NCBI GenBank assembly: GCA_002938035.1
Contig: PTLH01000006.1
Coordinates: 1-39,884 of the forward strand
Reading direction: 5' to 3'
Source of the DNA: Alphaproteobacteria bacterium MarineAlpha3_Bin6
GTDB taxonomy: Bacteria; Pseudomonadota; Alphaproteobacteria; Rhodospirillales; UBA2165
Length of the DNA stretch: 39,884 nucleotides
Shown: positions 6,724 through 21,381 of the stretch, one piece after another
Layout of the letters: each line of letters opens with the position of its first letter
How positions within the stretch are numbered: the first letter of the stretch is position 1
Notes under the pieces: generated by a model
Told to the model about the DNA's origin: nothing
The model's database searches: none
The model's input: only the letters and a program-made list of their open reading frames with translations
Translations under genes and position numbers: made by a program

Positions 6724-7086
6724 ATGAAACAAAACCTTTTAATGCCTGCTATTCTGATTGCAACGGTGGTTGGTGTCTCCGGTTGTACAGAGACTGCTGC
6801 GACAGCACCCTCATTTTTCCCTTTTCCCCAAGCGATGGGTTTAGAGGGGGCGGCAGTTTTGAGTACGGGAAAAACAATTAGTGACCACATTGTATCATTT
6901 TCAACTGGTAAAAATTGTTCTACCGTCCGAAAAAACATAGGACTTCACTACTGTGAAGAGGATGAAGTGCAGAACCCGGATGAAGTTTTTTGTTACAATA
7001 CGCTAGGTAATGTAAGCTGTTACGCGTCACCGGCGCCCCATGGCGAAACCCAACGTCATCTTGGGCAAACAAACGCCACGCGGTAA
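6724..7086 (+). CDS. Small cysteine-containing lipoprotein, function unknown
   Basis: A 120-residue protein with a lipoprotein signal peptide: hydrophobic LLMPAILIATVVGV and lipobox VSGC with Cys21. The mature part has the pattern STGKTISDHIVSFSTGKNC, then Cys77, Cys90 (VFCYNTLGNVSCY) and Cys99. I recognise this TGKT...DH...C...YC...C.xTLG.V.CY layout from small conserved hypothetical proteins of alphaproteobacteria, but know of no assigned function. The four mature cysteines (65, 77, 90, 99) could pair as two disulfides in the periplasm. It is transcribed alone, divergent from yfgM. TATACT at 6698-6703 could be a -10 box, but there is no good -35 and the ribosome-binding site is weak. The minus-strand ORF at 6705-6938 is its shadow. 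Confidence 0.75.
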   Translation: MKQNLLMPAILIATVVGVSGCTETAATAPSFFPFPQAMGLEGAAVLSTGKTISDHIVSFSTGKNCSTVRKNIGLHYCEEDEVQNPDEVFCYNTLGNVSCYASPAPHGETQRHLGQTNATR

Positions 7087-7447: not shown

Positions 7448-10400
7448 CTAAGCTTCAACTAAAGCTTCTTGGCGTTTACCTGATTTTTCAATCAAGCCCA
7501 AAGTAAAAGACATGATTGGCGGAACAAGTGCCATGGTCAGTACGGCGGATAGGGATAAGCCTCCGAGTACTACAGATCCTAAACCGCGGTATAGCTCAGA
7601 ACCAGAACCTGGGAAAATTACTAGTGGCAACATACCGAATACTGAGGTTAAAGTTGACATAAATATTGGTCGAATTCTATTGCGAGTAGCTTCTTCAATG
7701 GCTTCAGAAGCCTGCTTACCCTCTTCACGGATGTGATATAACGTCTGGTGTACAAGTAGGATCGCGTTATTGACCACAATGCCAACTAAAATGATGAAAC
7801 CCATCATAGTAAGCATGTCCAAGGATTGGTCGACGAACATATTAAGTATTGCTAAACCCATAAGGCCACCCGCTGCGGCGACCGGAACGGAGAGCATCAC
7901 AATTAAGGGGTAAATAAAACTCTCAAACAGCACCGCCATTACCAAATAGACGATAACTATTGCCAATAATAGGTCGAATGTTATTTCTTGCCACGTTTCG
8001 GTCAGCTTGTCAGCGCTTCCTGAAATACGCAAACGAACACCGTCAGGTAGTCCCTTTTTAATCATTGGTTGGACAACGCCGTCTCGTATTGTGTCAATTG
8101 CTTCCTGCAGCGGAATATTATCACGCGGGCTCAACTGTATTGTGACGGTTCGATACCGATCTATTCTTCGAATTTGAGTAGGACCATTAGTAACGATAAT
8201 ATCACTCAAACTTTCCACCGGCATTATGCGTCCATCACGGGTTACAATGGGTAGTTCATTGATGCGTTGCGTATGTTCTTTCCCTTCCCTTGGTCCCATC
8301 AACGTTAAGTCAATGCGTTTTCCCTCGAACGTTACTTCGGTAACGCGCAGGCCGTCGTTGAAGGCGTCTATCGTTTGACCGAGTTCTCCGGCTGAAACGC
8401 CATTATCCATTAACTTAAGTCGGTCAGGTATTACGCGAATTTCCGGTTCTCCAAGCGCGAGGCCCGGTTTTGGTCTAATTCGATTTCCTTGAGATGGAGG
8501 GAACTTACCTAGAAGTCGGAAGAATATCGACCGAGCAACTGTGTAATTGGTTTCTAAGTCTGGTCCCGATACATCTAAATTAATTCCTCTACCCGAGCCA
8601 ATAGATCGGCCCCACAATGTGGGTTGAAAGACAAAGGCGAGTACACCGGGCTCTTCTCTCGCAGGATTTTGCAGGAGTGGGATAAGTTCGTGGGCCTTGC
8701 TAGGATCGACATGTGATGCTGCCATGAACGCTCTACCGCGGAGGGATACTACAAAAAATCGATCGATCTTCCTTTCAATATCGTTAGCTACTTTATTTAC
8801 AGAATTGCCTGCATTTTCTAGGGTTGTAGACCATAATTTGCGAGTTTTCTCCTGGACCCGTGTCATGATGGCATCCATTGTGTCCAGATTGTAACCGGCA
8901 GGTGGTTGCACAAAACCGATAACGAGGTTGCGGTTGCCAGTCGGCAAGTAGTCAATCTTGGGCATTGCAACCCAAGAAAAAATAGTTGCAGCTAACGTTA
9001 TTACAAACACGATCACTCCAGCTTGGATCTTATTTTTAACAACATAGATAGCGAACCTACTCCAAAATGCGGCAAAGCCCACGGCAAATGGGTCCAGTAA
9101 GGGTATCCTGGTCCTTAGTTTTGAGCCGAAAGATTCAGATTGAAAGATCCGGTTAGAGAGCGCTGGTATTAAGGTTACAGAAATTAGCAAAGACAATGTT
9201 ACAGATACTGAAATCGCCACGCCGATATCACGAAAAAGCTGCCCAGCTTCTAATTCCATATAAAGGATTGGAATAAACACCATAACCGTGGTCAGAGAGG
9301 AGACCAATACTGCCGGCCATACTTGAGCAGTGCCTTTATACGCTGCTTCGCCTGCCGACATACCACTTTGCCGTAGTCGAAATATATTTTCTAGAACAAC
9401 AATAGCGGCGTCAACGACCATACCTACAGCAAATGCGATCCCAGCGAGGCTAACTACGTTCAAAGAACGACCGAGGATAGCCATGGCAACAAATGTGCCA
9501 ATAACTGAAACTGGAATAGCAGCGGCTATCACAATTGTCGGGCGCCAGGAGCGAAGAAACAACAAAAGTATGATAATTGCTAGTGCGCCGCCATAATAAA
9601 TATTTTGGGTCACTAGGGAGATAGATGAATTGATATACTCTGTCTCGTCATAAATCTGGCGTAAAATCAAACCGGCTTGCTTGATTGGGCCTTCAGCAAG
9701 TTCTTTAGTGACCGAACGAATTTCTTTCATTGTTTCCAATACGTTGGCACCTTGTTCCCGGGTCAGATTAAAACCTAGTGCCGGCACACCAAGTTGACGA
9801 GCGCGAGCAAAGCGTTCCTTATATGCGACATGTACGGTAGCTATGTCGCCGACGGTTACTCGGCCAAAGCCTCCTTCAAACCTCTCAGATCTTTCACTGC
9901 CCGACCTTGTTGATTTTTCGCTCCGAAGCAAAATGTTACGCACATCACTAGGAGTATTCAATTCTCCATCAGTGCGCACTACGTAGCGTCTTTTCCCTTC
10001 ATTGACATCACCTCCTGTTACGGCAGTATTCTCTGCTCGTAACCGTTGAATGACCTCCGGGATGGTTAAACGATAAAATGCCAGTTTTGCAGGATCTATG
10101 ATTACCTGTAATTCACGCTCGTTGTCACCGTAAAGGTTAACCCCGCCGACCCCATTTATCCGCTCATAACGTCCTTCTATCACGTCTCTTAAAAAGTCGC
10201 CGTAGGTACCCATTGGGCGTTCGTTATCTTTGGTGCGGGTAAGCGTAAACCATGCAATAGCGTTATCGTCGGTTCCGGATGTGCTGATGGTTGGTTCATC
10301 CGCCTCTTCGGGGTAACCTGTCACTCTATCAAGGCGATTGGCTGTAAGGAGAAGTGTCCGGTTGAAGTCAAGTCCAGGGTTAAACTCTAAGGTTACAACA

Positions 10401-10666
10401 CCTTGGTTGTGTTTGGCTTCACTTACAATGCGTTTTACGCCTTCCAGTCCCTTAAGTTCTTCCTCCTGTTTTGTCACGATCTCTCGTTCTACTTCCGATG
10501 GTGCCGCACCGCGCCAGTTGGTTTTTATTATGATAACTGGTTGGCGTACATCAGGAGCCATTTGGATTGGGACCTTTTGGAGGGATACCCAACCAAACAG
10601 CACAATCATCAAAACCATTGCTACAACGGCTGTTGGTCTTTCAATGGAGAGACGGATTAAATTCAT
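7448..10666 (-). CDS. RND efflux transporter, inner-membrane pump (HAE1/AcrB-like)
   Basis: This 1072-residue protein has the full AcrB-type layout: TM1 at 12-30, a first large periplasmic loop, TM2-6 from about 355, TM7 near 550, a second periplasmic loop, and TM8-12 at about 895-1060. Conserved landmarks include the N-terminal FGWVSLQKVPIQMAPDV and GMVVDAAIVVLENIFR in TM4. It should be the proton-driven trimeric pump of a tripartite exporter, partnered by the adaptor encoded 45 bases upstream; no TolC-like gene is in the window. The proton-relay residues differ from E. coli AcrB: TM4 has Asp419-Ala420 where AcrB has Asp407-Asp408, and TM10 has Asn966 where AcrB has Lys940. Substrate cannot be predicted; drug, lipid or metabolite export are all possible. 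Confidence 0.93.
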   Translation of the reverse strand: MNLIRLSIERPTAVVAMVLMIVLFGWVSLQKVPIQMAPDVRQPVIIIKTNWRGAAPSEVEREIVTKQEEELKGLEGVKRIVSEAKHNQGVVTLEFNPGLDFNRTLLLTANRLDRVTGYPEEADEPTISTSGTDDNAIAWFTLTRTKDNERPMGTYGDFLRDVIEGRYERINGVGGVNLYGDNERELQVIIDPAKLAFYRLTIPEVIQRLRAENTAVTGGDVNEGKRRYVVRTDGELNTPSDVRNILLRSEKSTRSGSERSERFEGGFGRVTVGDIATVHVAYKERFARARQLGVPALGFNLTREQGANVLETMKEIRSVTKELAEGPIKQAGLILRQIYDETEYINSSISLVTQNIYYGGALAIIILLLFLRSWRPTIVIAAAIPVSVIGTFVAMAILGRSLNVVSLAGIAFAVGMVVDAAIVVLENIFRLRQSGMSAGEAAYKGTAQVWPAVLVSSLTTVMVFIPILYMELEAGQLFRDIGVAISVSVTLSLLISVTLIPALSNRIFQSESFGSKLRTRIPLLDPFAVGFAAFWSRFAIYVVKNKIQAGVIVFVITLAATIFSWVAMPKIDYLPTGNRNLVIGFVQPPAGYNLDTMDAIMTRVQEKTRKLWSTTLENAGNSVNKVANDIERKIDRFFVVSLRGRAFMAASHVDPSKAHELIPLLQNPAREEPGVLAFVFQPTLWGRSIGSGRGINLDVSGPDLETNYTVARSIFFRLLGKFPPSQGNRIRPKPGLALGEPEIRVIPDRLKLMDNGVSAGELGQTIDAFNDGLRVTEVTFEGKRIDLTLMGPREGKEHTQRINELPIVTRDGRIMPVESLSDIIVTNGPTQIRRIDRYRTVTIQLSPRDNIPLQEAIDTIRDGVVQPMIKKGLPDGVRLRISGSADKLTETWQEITFDLLLAIVIVYLVMAVLFESFIYPLIVMLSVPVAAAGGLMGLAILNMFVDQSLDMLTMMGFIILVGIVVNNAILLVHQTLYHIREEGKQASEAIEEATRNRIRPIFMSTLTSVFGMLPLVIFPGSGSELYRGLGSVVLGGLSLSAVLTMALVPPIMSFTLGLIEKSGKRQEALVEA

Positions 10667-10711: not shown

Positions 10712-12328
10712 TTATCGAACAACTCTAACTTTACCCCCACCTCCGAGACGTTCATTGCCTCGTACTACTACTTTCTCACCGGCTTTAAGGCCACTTAATA
10801 TTTGGAAACGATCCCCAATCCCCCGTCCTATACGAACACTTCTCATTGAAGCGGTAGCTCCTTTTACCACATAGACAACATTACCATTTGCCCGGCGAAT
10901 TACCGCATCTTTGGAGACAGTGAGAATGGGCCGATCAGAAGTCAGTGATAATTCAACAAGGACGGCCTGATTGTCAGCGAGTGGTTTAGTGGTGGGCTTC
11001 ACTTCGGGTCTCAAACGAACCGGTCGTGTGCGGGTTCGCAAATCTTCTCTGGGGATTATAGCCCGCACAACCGCTGATACCCTGTCACCATCATCAAGTA
11101 TTACACTTGCCAGGGTATTCGTTTTCAATGTGTTGATGCGGGCACTTGGGACGTCGATCTCTATTTCTAATAAGCGGTCGTTTATAAGAGTTACAATAGG
11201 TGCTCCGGTGTTTACATAGGTCCCCACCTCGACGTGTTTCTGAATAATAATACCTTCAAAAGGCGCTCGAATTGTTGCGTCACGAATATCTATATCTATG
11301 CGCTCGAGTGACGCCGAAGCCTCCGCAACCTGGGCATTCTTCTCTAAAACCTGTGCCGTCTTTTCTGATACAAGTCCCTCAAGATCTTCAAAACGCGCAC
11401 GCGAAAAAGCAGCTGACTTAAGTAAACTCTCCATTCTGCTGAATTCCCGTTTTGCATTTTTAAGCGCAGTTTTTTGGACCCGGAGTACAGCATTCTGGCG
11501 GTTTAACAAAGCTACCGCTCTTTTGCGCTCTATGATCAGTCGACCAGCTGCTAATGTTGCTACCATTGAACCTTTTTTTACTCGTTCTCCGACAGCAACA
11601 GAGACGAGGTTAATGGTACCACTTATCCGAGCGGATAATACTCCTGATTGGAGGGCTACAACTCTGCCGACGATTTGATAGGTTTCACTGCTAAGCTTAG
11701 ACACCACATCACCAAGCTTGACTGCTTGAGGTGGTCTACCCCGAGGAGCAGGTTTTTTACCCTGCGACGTTATTTTTTTTGCCGTTTTCAACTTGTCTGG
11801 GTCTTTAATCGCCTTTTCTGGGCATCCAGAACCAGAGAAAAAGCCTTTAATTTCGGCACCATCCAGGCCGCCATTTTTATCGCAATCCATGTCGTCAAAA
11901 TTGGCCGCAAGTGGCCCCCGGGCCTCACTCTCCTGGATTAGTCCGTCTTTATTCGTATCAGAAGCCTTACTCCGCTCCGAAAGAGGGGGGAATTTTGACT
12001 TAGCGAGGGTTGTAGTGGAGGCGGCGGCCGGTTGTTCCTTTGGGCATCCAGACCCGCTGAAGAAACCGCTAATTTCGGCACCATCCAGGCCGCCATTTTT
12101 ATCGCAATCCATGTCGTCGAAATTAGCTGCAAGTGGCCCCCGGGCCTCACTCTCCTGGATCAGTCCATCTTTATTCGTATCTGCCGCCTTCCCCCGCTCT
12201 GAAAGTTCTTTTCCTTGAGCATTAACTGGCTTTGGGGTCATAACTAACATCGATGTTCCGAAAAACAACGTCAATAAAATCACAAAACTAGAATGCAAAG
12301 TTTTCGTTATTTCCACCGTAATTCCCAT
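10712..12328 (-). CDS. RND periplasmic adaptor (membrane-fusion protein) with a duplicated N-terminal EF-hand block
   Basis: A 538-residue protein. A signal peptide probably ends at VNA-Q (37/38). Four canonical EF-hand loops follow: DTNKDGLIQESE at 50-61 and 124-135, and DCDKNGGLDGAE at 74-85 and 148-159. Each keeps Asp1, Asp/Asn3, Asp/Asn5, Gly6, a hydrophobic 8 and Glu12. After a basic Pro-rich linker (about 175-202) comes a normal MFP: lipoyl half, alpha-hairpin (about 265-345), second lipoyl half (ATIRAPFEGIIIQKHVEVG), beta-barrel and membrane-proximal domain. The MFP core alone would be of usual size; the roughly 140-residue EF-hand block is extra. It should bridge the pump encoded 45 bases downstream to an outer-membrane channel. 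Periplasmic Ca2+ binding is inferred from the loops. Each block also carries two cysteines (75/95 and 149/169) that could form disulfides. Confidence 0.9.
   Translation of the reverse strand: MGITVEITKTLHSSFVILLTLFFGTSMLVMTPKPVNAQGKELSERGKAADTNKDGLIQESEARGPLAANFDDMDCDKNGGLDGAEISGFFSGSGCPKEQPAAASTTTLAKSKFPPLSERSKASDTNKDGLIQESEARGPLAANFDDMDCDKNGGLDGAEIKGFFSGSGCPEKAIKDPDKLKTAKKITSQGKKPAPRGRPPQAVKLGDVVSKLSSETYQIVGRVVALQSGVLSARISGTINLVSVAVGERVKKGSMVATLAAGRLIIERKRAVALLNRQNAVLRVQKTALKNAKREFSRMESLLKSAAFSRARFEDLEGLVSEKTAQVLEKNAQVAEASASLERIDIDIRDATIRAPFEGIIIQKHVEVGTYVNTGAPIVTLINDRLLEIEIDVPSARINTLKTNTLASVILDDGDRVSAVVRAIIPREDLRTRTRPVRLRPEVKPTTKPLADNQAVLVELSLTSDRPILTVSKDAVIRRANGNVVYVVKGATASMRSVRIGRGIGDRFQILSGLKAGEKVVVRGNERLGGGGKVRVVR
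11819..12205 (-). repeat. Tandem duplication encoding the EF-hand pairs, 222-bp period
   Basis: Two copies of a 165-bp unit (12041-12205 and 11819-11983) lie in tandem, 222 bp apart, inside the adaptor gene. Their core (112 nt, 12070-12181 versus 11848-11959) differs at five positions, all synonymous, so the encoded 37 residues from DTNKDG to DGAEI are identical. The intervening linker differs. This indicates a fairly recent in-frame duplication or gene conversion, with selection on the protein. Confidence 0.9.
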
Positions 12329-18873: not shown

Positions 18874-21381
18874 ATGACGTCTCGTTGCGTGCAGGCCTAT
18901 GACACTCTGGTGCTCCATAATCCAAAATCAATTCTGGTTGTGCTGCTCTTAATTGCGGTTTTCTTCGGTTATCACACAAAAGATTTTAAGTTGGATGCAT
19001 CGGCCGATTCCTTGCTGTTAGAAGGTGACATCGATCTCAAGGTGTTCAGGAAAATACACGAGCGATATCCGAGTAGCGACTTACTCATTGTGACGTATAC
19101 CCCAGATAAAGATCTCTTCTCTGACCAGGCATTAAAGCCTCTGAAGCAACTCCGGGGAGAGCTCAAGAAAGTTGCTAGCGTGGAGACAGTGTTCACGATA
19201 CTCGATGCCCCCCTAGTCAAAAGTTCGGACGTGCCACTGACGGAAATGATCCACGACATACCTAACCTGGAGAAACCCGGTATTGATCGGGCCAAAGCTA
19301 AGGACGAGTTACTCAATAGCCCTATTTACCGCGAACTTATAGTTAGTGCAGATGGTCGAACCACTGCTCTACTATTGGGACTAGTCGAAGATCTACAGTA
19401 CAACAAGTTACGCCAAACTCGCAGTAAATTGCGTGCCAAACAAAGAAATAGAGATCTCTCCCAAAAAGAAAGGCAATCTTTAGAACGCATTGAAACCGAA
19501 TATGATCAGGCGCATGAAGCGATAAACAATCAACGCCGTTTAGATATTGCACACATCAGAGATATCATCGAACCTTACCGGCGGCATGGCGTTCTATACC
19601 TCGGTGGCGTGCCGATGATTGCTGACGACATGGTGTCATTTGTGCGTAAGGACCTGGTTATCTTTGGTAGCGTTGTTCTTATATTCCTTATTATCGTTCT
19701 CACTGCTATTTTCCGCGAATTGCGTTGGATCGTTCTCCCTTTACTCAGCTGTTTTTATGCCGGATTAATCATGCTGGGTGTTCTGGGATTGATTGGTTGG
19801 AAGGTTACAGTCATTTCATCCAATTTTCTCGCCCTTATGTTGATCATCACTATTTCAATGAATATCCATCTGATTGTCCGTTACCGGCAACTCAATCGAG
19901 ATAATAGTGGTGATGACCAGTTGTCTCTTGTTAGAGCCACTATGCATAAGATGGTGAAACCCTGTTTATATACGGTTCTGACTACCATTATGGGTTTTAG
20001 CTCTCTGGCCGTTAGCGAAATCAAGCCGGTAATGGACTTTGGGTGGATGATGAGTGCGGGTTTGGCGGTGGCATTTGTTACATCGTTCGTACTATTTCCC
20101 GCGTTGTTGATGGTCACGGGGAAATCTGGATCTAAACCCATTTCCGATAATGACCGCTTTACTTTACCGGCATATTTAGCCCGTCTGACCGAGAGCCAGG
20201 GCAACAAGGTCTTAGTGTTGGCGGTGATATTGACTGTCGTGAGTGTAGCGGGAATTACCCAGTTGCGTGTCGAGAATAGTTTCATCAATTACTTCAGTGA
20301 AGACACGGAGATATTTCAAGGTCTCAAGCTAATTGATGAACAGCTCGGGGGCACTACTCCACTAGAAATTGTCGTAAAAATTGATGATGACTTTGACGAC
20401 GTTCCGGATCCTGAGGACCTTAAGGGGTTAACCGAGGAGGAGATAGAAATGGAGCGGGAGTTTGCTGAAGAACAGGCTAATTCACCGCAGTATTGGTTTA
20501 CACCCGACAAAATCCAACGCATTAAAGAAGTACACGACTATCTAGATGGATTACCTGAAATTGGCAAAGTTCTCTCTCTTGCTTCGACAGTGCGGGTCGC
20601 TGAAGACTACGCCGAAGAGGTGTTGGACGGAATGCAACTGGCACTGTTGTATACTAAGCTACCACCCAAAGTAAGAGAGGACCTCATCGATCCTTATGTC
20701 TCTATCGATAATAATGAGGCACGGTTCCTTGCACGCGTGTTGGATTCAAAACATGATTTACGACGCGATGAGTTGTTGAAAACGGTTCGCAGTGACCTTG
20801 TGAAGAAGCTCGGATTTGAGAAAGAGAACGTGATCGTGAGTGGGCTTCTGGTTCTCTACAATAATATGCTGCAGAGCTTGTTCAGGTCACAGATTAAAAC
20901 CATAGGTGTAGTGATGCTGGGAATTGCGATCATGTTCCTCGTGTTGTTTCGTTCAATAAAATTGTCGATTATCGGCATTCTGCCAAACCTGCTAGGCGCC
21001 GGGGTGGTTTTGGGGGTAATGGGATGGGCGGGTATACCAATGGATATGATGACAATCACGATTGCGGCCATTACCATTGGTATAGCAGTAGACAATGGTA
21101 TTCACTATATCTACCGTTTCAGAGAAGAGTATGCACTTAATCACAGTTATGTGGAAACCTTGCACGTTTGCCATTCCAATATAGGTAGAGCTGTGTTCTA
21201 CACGACTATGACCATAATTTTCGGTTTTTCCATCTTGGTGTTTTCCAACTTTATCCCTACAATTTATTTTGGAGTGTTAACGGCAGCGGCGATGCTAATC
21301 GCCCTTTTAGCGGCACTCACGGTACTGCCAAAGTTAATTTTACTTTGGAAACCATTCGCCCGATACGAGGGATCAAATTAG
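18874..21381 (+). CDS. RND-superfamily MMPL-type exporter (COG1033-like)
   Basis: An 835-residue membrane protein with two repeats of one TM, a large periplasmic domain and five TMs. TM1 is at about 18-33, a first cluster at about 260-415, TM7 near 440-460, and the last cluster from about 690. The TM10 motif GIAVDNGIHYIYRFREE carries Asp740, the likely proton-relay acid. The matching TM4 segment TISMNIHLIVRYR has no acidic residue, so the two halves are asymmetric. The first periplasmic domain has a charged helical hairpin (about 175-225), and the second an acidic stretch (about 505-545). Homologues export lipids or hydrophobic compounds; the cargo here is unknown. The start has AGAGG 8 bases upstream. 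The gene lies against its neighbours' direction, between dnaB and alr. Confidence 0.88.
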   Translation: MTSRCVQAYDTLVLHNPKSILVVLLLIAVFFGYHTKDFKLDASADSLLLEGDIDLKVFRKIHERYPSSDLLIVTYTPDKDLFSDQALKPLKQLRGELKKVASVETVFTILDAPLVKSSDVPLTEMIHDIPNLEKPGIDRAKAKDELLNSPIYRELIVSADGRTTALLLGLVEDLQYNKLRQTRSKLRAKQRNRDLSQKERQSLERIETEYDQAHEAINNQRRLDIAHIRDIIEPYRRHGVLYLGGVPMIADDMVSFVRKDLVIFGSVVLIFLIIVLTAIFRELRWIVLPLLSCFYAGLIMLGVLGLIGWKVTVISSNFLALMLIITISMNIHLIVRYRQLNRDNSGDDQLSLVRATMHKMVKPCLYTVLTTIMGFSSLAVSEIKPVMDFGWMMSAGLAVAFVTSFVLFPALLMVTGKSGSKPISDNDRFTLPAYLARLTESQGNKVLVLAVILTVVSVAGITQLRVENSFINYFSEDTEIFQGLKLIDEQLGGTTPLEIVVKIDDDFDDVPDPEDLKGLTEEEIEMEREFAEEQANSPQYWFTPDKIQRIKEVHDYLDGLPEIGKVLSLASTVRVAEDYAEEVLDGMQLALLYTKLPPKVREDLIDPYVSIDNNEARFLARVLDSKHDLRRDELLKTVRSDLVKKLGFEKENVIVSGLLVLYNNMLQSLFRSQIKTIGVVMLGIAIMFLVLFRSIKLSIIGILPNLLGAGVVLGVMGWAGIPMDMMTITIAAITIGIAVDNGIHYIYRFREEYALNHSYVETLHVCHSNIGRAVFYTTMTIIFGFSILVFSNFIPTIYFGVLTAAAMLIALLAALTVLPKLILLWKPFARYEGSN

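Follow-up and report, generated by a model that had tools for sequence, protein, structure and literature searches.

An EF-hand extension on an RND adaptor

The window, the whole stretch of DNA that was analyzed, comprises 39,884 nucleotides from Alphaproteobacteria bacterium MarineAlpha3_Bin6. On its minus strand, an open reading frame at 10712-12328 encodes a 538-aa RND adaptor, which TIGR01730 (RND_mfp) recognizes with 191.8 bits over residues 204-536 (cut-off 94.9). The protein begins with a Sec signal peptide, continues with four intact EF-hand loops and a basic linker, and ends in a normal adaptor core. A preliminary description of this DNA had placed about 140 residues and a basic, proline-rich linker ahead of the core. 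Both are there: the EF-hand region spans about residues 38-171, a Lys/Arg/Pro linker follows at residues 172-200, and the core starts at about residue 201. The features are as follows.

10712-12328, minus strand: RND periplasmic adaptor gene with N-terminal EF-hand modules, 538 aa (profile matches)
12218-12328, minus strand: Sec signal peptide, residues 1-37, without lipobox Cys (sequence; cleavage VNA/QG judged by eye)
12038-12217, minus strand: EF-hand module copy 1, residues 38-97 (module profile, E 1.9e-35; pLDDT about 88-91)
11816-11992, minus strand: EF-hand module copy 2, residues 113-171 (module profile, E 2.0e-35; AlphaFold)
12146-12181, minus strand: EF loop 1, DTNKDGLIQESE, residues 50-61 (loop motif scan)
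12074-12109, minus strand: EF loop 2, DCDKNGGLDGAE, residues 74-85 (loop motif scan)
11924-11959, minus strand: EF loop 3, DTNKDGLIQESE, residues 124-135 (loop motif scan)
11852-11887, minus strand: EF loop 4, DCDKNGGLDGAE, residues 148-159 (loop motif scan)
12044-12106, minus strand: predicted disulfide of module 1, Cys75 (loop position 2) with Cys95 (GCP tail) (cysteine co-occurrence, 70 modules)
11822-11884, minus strand: predicted disulfide of module 2, Cys149 with Cys169 (cysteine co-occurrence)
11729-11815, minus strand: disordered basic Lys/Arg/Pro linker, residues 172-200 (pLDDT below 50 for residues 172-193)
10715-11728, minus strand: adaptor core, residues 201-538, with membrane-proximal, barrel, lipoyl and hairpin domains (profiles, AlphaFold)
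11279-11545, minus strand: alpha-hairpin, residues 262-350; the tip R298-L302-S309 is conserved (alignment, AlphaFold)
7448-10666, minus strand: RND permease of 1072 aa, the next gene downstream from the adaptor (profile matches; order kept in relatives)

Four loops from one duplicated pair

The four 12-residue loops (DTNKDGLIQESE at residues 50 and 124, DCDKNGGLDGAE at residues 74 and 148) are not chance motif matches. In 20,000 composition-preserving shuffles, such loops average 0.001 per protein, and no shuffle has more than one. Nor are they four independent EF-hands. A direct repeat of 165 nt (11819-11983 and 12041-12205, spacing 222 nt) is 88% identical between its copies. What was duplicated in tandem is a single EF-hand pair, some 60 residues long and here called the module. 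The four canonical loops reported earlier are thus present, far above the shuffles, but as tandem copies of one pair they represent only two independent loop types.

All four loops keep ligand positions 1, 3, 5 and 12, as had been claimed, with Asn at position 3 of the first loop and at position 5 of the second. The Pfam EF-hand model (PF00036) stays just short of its gathering score on the adaptor (23.3 vs 25.4) and exceeds it on a module-bearing relative, L089 (28.1). Copy number varies among adaptors: there is one module in G001, L012 and L013, two in most and three in G006. The three tandem modules of the last belong to adaptor L010 (G006 C9), where position 6 of loop 1 is Asn instead of Gly in two modules; the assembly bases are ambiguous there.

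Asp and Glu occupy loop positions 1 and 12 in 70 of 70 distinct modules, a figure inflated by an extraction pattern that demanded acidic or amide residues at several ligand positions. Position 3 is Asn or Asp, position 5 is Asn, Asp or Ser, and 12 residues separate the two loops of each module. In L101 and L113, a two-residue insertion hid the second module from this pattern, yet these modules likewise keep the ligand residues. Degenerate ligands in homologues had been named as one observation that would speak against the proposal; the ligands proved to be conserved family-wide. Strong conservation extends to non-ligand positions, for example in ARGPLAANF and GFF.G.GCP.

G001, a genome of the same genus, has only one module. 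Compared with window copy 1 over 56 codons, it shows nine synonymous and no nonsynonymous differences, while the adaptor cores of the two genomes have a dN of 0.028 and a dS of 0.13. The codon comparison points strongly to purifying selection on the module. Between the two module copies within the window gene dS is 0.46. Since this exceeds the dS between the two genomes, the duplication probably predates their split. G001 has probably lost one copy, or its copies were collapsed by assembly.

A module may have two cysteines, the first at position 2 of its second loop and the second in the GCP tail; 39 of the 70 modules have both and 30 have neither. The one module with an unmatched cysteine (second only) sits in an unrelated protein. 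The co-occurrence is suggestive of a disulfide in the oxidizing periplasm. Cysteine-bearing modules form one clade within the module-bearing adaptors. Hence the 39 cysteine pairs are not 39 independent events.

An AlphaFold model of the adaptor, built with 21 rows, contains two confident EF-hand units (pLDDT about 85-91), each module being a helix-loop-helix pair. Residues 98-110 and 172-193 are disordered. The core is confident, with hairpin helices at 262-301 and 310-350 as well as beta domains, most blocks having a pLDDT of about 90. Foldseek searches with the module pair lead to calmodulin-type proteins at modest E-values (best E 2e-4). By its conserved ligands and predicted fold, the N-terminal region is a real, non-degenerate EF-hand domain, with Ca2+ presumably the metal.

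Module-bearing adaptors form one branch

The module alignment (A1) served as the query for genome searches. In the window's own genome, which is 89% complete, the module is found only on the adaptor at 10712-12328. Order-wide, among 317 genomes, strong matches occur only in the window's family. Among 385 alphaproteobacterial genomes, two further families have strong modules (f60, three genomes; f132, four genomes). Named genome contigs added MAGs of Rhodospirillales and Alphaproteobacteria, many of them marine, and three Defluviicoccus MAGs. Outside Alphaproteobacteria no strong module was found in 399 phylum-wide genomes, where the best matches (E 7e-10) are proteins of 177-238 aa. A close homologue of the adaptor core exists in 74 of the 385 class genomes, seven of which, including the window's, carry the module.

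A search for the architecture across genomes had been recommended. It yields 26 module-bearing adaptors from several families of marine and freshwater Alphaproteobacteria, Defluviicoccus among them. With many assemblies represented, including named MAGs and near-complete genomes, a genome-specific oddity or an assembly artefact can be rejected. In a tree of 71 adaptor cores, the 26 adaptors with the module lie on one side of a single branch (98/95) and the 45 without it on the other. No module-less adaptor falls among the 26, and the same holds without the extra sampling. The root of this tree is arbitrary, so either side may be the ancestral one. L014 was considered as an adaptor that had lost its module. 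This was rejected, as its reading frame is cut by the contig end, and L014 was left out of later trees; the first tree, which included it, seemed to need two changes.

A different N-terminal addition occurs on a set of paralogous adaptors (L015, L017, L019, L021, L022, L029, L046, L048, L049 and L052), which form one clade (100/100). It consists of a short helical S.DERQKFF.MS.E.KQKF segment and an Arg/Gly/Pro linker, and most of these proteins also have a longer C-terminus.

A drug-type pump with an ordinary core

The permease next to the adaptor is an ACR_tran protein (E 3.9e-196), and its place beside the adaptor is conserved in relatives. Drug-type models score higher than heavy-metal models on this permease, which lies under the cut-offs of both. 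A heavy-metal pump (CusBA or CzcBA) was rejected (adaptor model TIGR00999, 125.4 vs 319.3; permease model TIGR00914, 276.6 vs 701.5). Two outer-membrane-factor matches lie elsewhere in the window's genome.

With the TIGR01730 class (AcrA, MexA, MdtA) the adaptor has in common the core domains, the R-x3-L-x6-S spacing at the hairpin tip and the adjacent permease. The tip residues R298, L302, S305 and S309 are kept, and R, L and S are spaced as in the TolC-docking motif of AcrA. Unlike this class, the window adaptor has a 140-residue EF-hand extension and no lipidation site. An inner-membrane anchor, either a lipid or a transmembrane helix, is usual among such adaptors but does not strictly define them. 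Adaptor signal peptides in our set have no lipobox, with or without the module; the sole match belongs to an extension upstream of L016. By its look the window adaptor's signal peptide is cleavable, though it may be an uncleaved signal anchor, and module-less relatives look alike. Because module-less adaptors also lack the lipobox, the module is no simple replacement for an anchor.

The TM4 signature of the permease, VDAAIVVLEN, is identical in relatives with and without the module. Hence the module marks no different transport mechanism. The motif is common to the whole permease set. In the window permease it is accompanied by GIVVNNAILLV, whereas the AcrB-type counterparts are VDDAIVVVEN and a second motif containing a Lys; going by these residues, the proton relay may differ from the AcrB type. 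Beside the pump genes, on the opposite strand, a short reading frame (6724-7086) starts like a lipoprotein (VVGVSGCTET) and matches no Pfam model. Farther along the window, an MMPL-family protein of 835 aa is encoded on the plus strand (18874-21381).

The same module on other exported proteins

The module is not confined to pumps. It matches with E-values of about 1e-28 to 1e-35 on adaptors, TRAP binding proteins, a dienelactone hydrolase and a metallo-beta-lactamase-fold protein. All passenger types in sister genomes carry it immediately after the signal peptide, and the passengers are supported by Pfam. In L107 it heads a DctP-type TRAP binding protein with DctP-DctQ-DctM gene order, and L089 is a second such binding protein. 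The dienelactone hydrolase (L033, L098) and the metallo-beta-lactamase-fold protein (L042, L086) are headed in the same way. The TRAP gene group of L107 (3923-7040) consists of the module-bearing binding protein followed by the likely small and large membrane subunits. Other metallo-beta-lactamase-fold proteins (L118:2700-3761, L119:3551-4612 and L120:845-1894) have an EF-hand pair of similar spacing, located inside the fold (about residues 141-189) and not at the N-terminus.

These passengers bear on the idea of a calcium switch, in which Ca2+ on the EF-hands would alter adaptor assembly or permease activation and transport would depend on periplasmic Ca2+. Metal-binding additions at the N- or C-terminus of the heavy-metal adaptors CusB and SilB offer a precedent (PMC4446572). 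They too are extra metal-binding parts of an RND adaptor, but they belong to heavy-metal pumps and use Met clusters or a CusF fold to bind Cu or Ag, whereas the window combines EF-hands with a drug-type pump. A switch would fit the intact ligands, the strong purifying selection and an adaptor N-terminus that adjoins the permease. The module on non-pump passengers is the main reason to doubt one that is specific to the pump. Moreover, the long disordered linkers are poor at relaying a conformational change, module copy number varies, and the permease signature stays the same with or without the module. We consider the switch, which would be comparable to the way metal triggers activation via the CusB N-terminal region, unlikely.

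The calcium-responsive pump that the preliminary description had suggested is not supported, given the unchanged permease signature and the non-pump proteins. Its seawater-Ca2+ sensor fares no better. Seawater holds about 10 mM Ca2+, and external millimolar Ca2+ is expected to saturate the module, which also speaks against a switch. Defluviicoccus, which is not a typical marine genus, carries the same module, and this argues against a marine speciality. We prefer the other half of the earlier proposal, a pump that calcium may stabilize.

Alternatively, the module may be a passive tag that aids the secretion, folding or stability of its passenger in a Ca2+-rich periplasm and has no specific partner. 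Its position right after the signal peptide, the unrelated passengers, the variable copy number and the disordered linkers would all suit such a tag. A pure folding tag would, however, apparently need less conservation than is seen at the non-ligand positions (ARGPLAANF, GFF.G.GCP), and a dN of 0 over 56 codons also counts against it. This alternative deserves consideration, though we would not expect it to be correct.

Relation to lanmodulin and other EF-hand proteins

Lanmodulin (NF053806) is the best solved relative of the module (E about 5e-6, ungapped over 46 residues). The two share Sec export and an EF-hand pair with exactly 12 residues between the loops. Adjacent EF-hands in lanmodulins are 12-13 residues apart, compared to about 25 in usual Ca2+-responsive proteins, and at least one loop has Pro at position 2 (PMC10232371). 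With 12 residues the module has the lanmodulin spacing. It differs in having two loops per module, no Pro2 and, in loop 2, a Cys at position 2, as well as in being fused to other proteins. Position 2 is Thr or Cys in the adaptor, and Pro is not among the commonest residues there over the 70 modules. The lanmodulin model scores 43.3 bits on the adaptor (cut-off 135), and no family genome passes this cut-off. Among the 24 family genomes, a PQQ methanol/ethanol-type dehydrogenase (TIGR03075) was detected in one; the window's genome (89% complete) gave no match. Lanmodulin membership was rejected on the missing Pro2, the model score and the lack of a detected lanthanide enzyme in the window's genome. 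As far as sequence can tell, the module is lanmodulin architecture without lanmodulin membership.

The module could still derive from lanmodulin and load a lanthanide or another metal for export or scavenging. The solved relative, the NCBIfam match and the common 12-residue spacing point that way. The missing Pro2, the low lanmodulin scores in the adaptor and throughout the family, the near absence of the PQQ alcohol dehydrogenase (1 of 24 family genomes) and a permease closest to drug-type RND pumps point the other way and make metal capture very improbable.

Dockerins resemble the module as small Ca2+ modules of EF-hand type that are attached to many different exported proteins. Loop position 12 is Glu in the module but Asp in dockerins. 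Dockerin and cohesin identity was rejected: the Pfam dockerin model matches the adaptor under its cut-off (E 0.092), and cohesin occurs in none of the 24 family genomes. EfhP of Pseudomonas aeruginosa has two canonical EF-hands and binds Ca2+ (PMC9132961); it has no described transporter role and is not an adaptor fusion.

A proposed calcium-loaded tether

To explain the module, we propose that it is a portable, constitutively Ca2+-loaded tether or docking handle. We favor this reading over its rivals but hold it tentatively, as something a little short of an even bet. After Sec export, the EF-hand pair would fold around its metal, presumably Ca2+. In the window's lineage, a disulfide would probably lock the pair. 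Flexible, basic linkers would then suspend one to three such beads from the adaptor at its membrane-proximal end. If six adaptors form a ring, as in known pumps, the two modules of the window's adaptor would surround the pump base with 12 beads and 24 sites. The beads may hold or position the non-lipidated adaptor in the envelope, while adaptor core and permease would operate like those of ordinary RND pumps. The analysis shows the domain order, the conserved ligands, purifying selection on the module, its confinement to a single branch of adaptors, its presence on other exported proteins and a predicted EF-hand fold, whereas Ca2+ as the metal, the disulfide, the docking role and the ring geometry are inferred. 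The variable copy number, the paired cysteines and the missing lipid anchor also speak for the tether.

In a broader scenario, a disulfide-locked EF-hand plug on transporter parts and enzymes would be gathered by a putative receptor into a common periplasmic docking system that depends on Ca2+, in principle a counterpart there of dockerin and cohesin. Cohesin, the only named receptor family tried, is absent from the 24 family genomes, which counts against the docking role of the tether as well. Furthermore, since the module occurs only on the adaptor in the window's genome (89% complete), that genome gives no evident sign of shared docking. We regard this scenario as quite improbable.

Implications

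Few bacterial envelope proteins have been studied as well as RND adaptors. The preliminary description knew of no characterized adaptor with this architecture, and no account of it was found in the open-licence literature on EF-hands in RND adaptors or TRAP proteins, on lanmodulin in efflux, or on metal-binding additions to adaptors. Such proteins may well have received automatic annotations in databases. In a review of adaptors, additional metal domains at the N- or C-terminus are mentioned for heavy-metal pumps only (PMC4446572). The lanmodulin survey retained only proteins of less than 200 residues (PMC10232371); hence EF-hand fusions would have been left out.

The adaptors described here form a stable drug-type subfamily with intact EF-hands, on one branch and in several families, which makes the use of Ca2+ by a pump, in its assembly or its activity, directly testable. 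Lanmodulin-like spacing without a detected lanthanide enzyme also provides a natural comparison for the lanthanide selectivity of lanmodulin.
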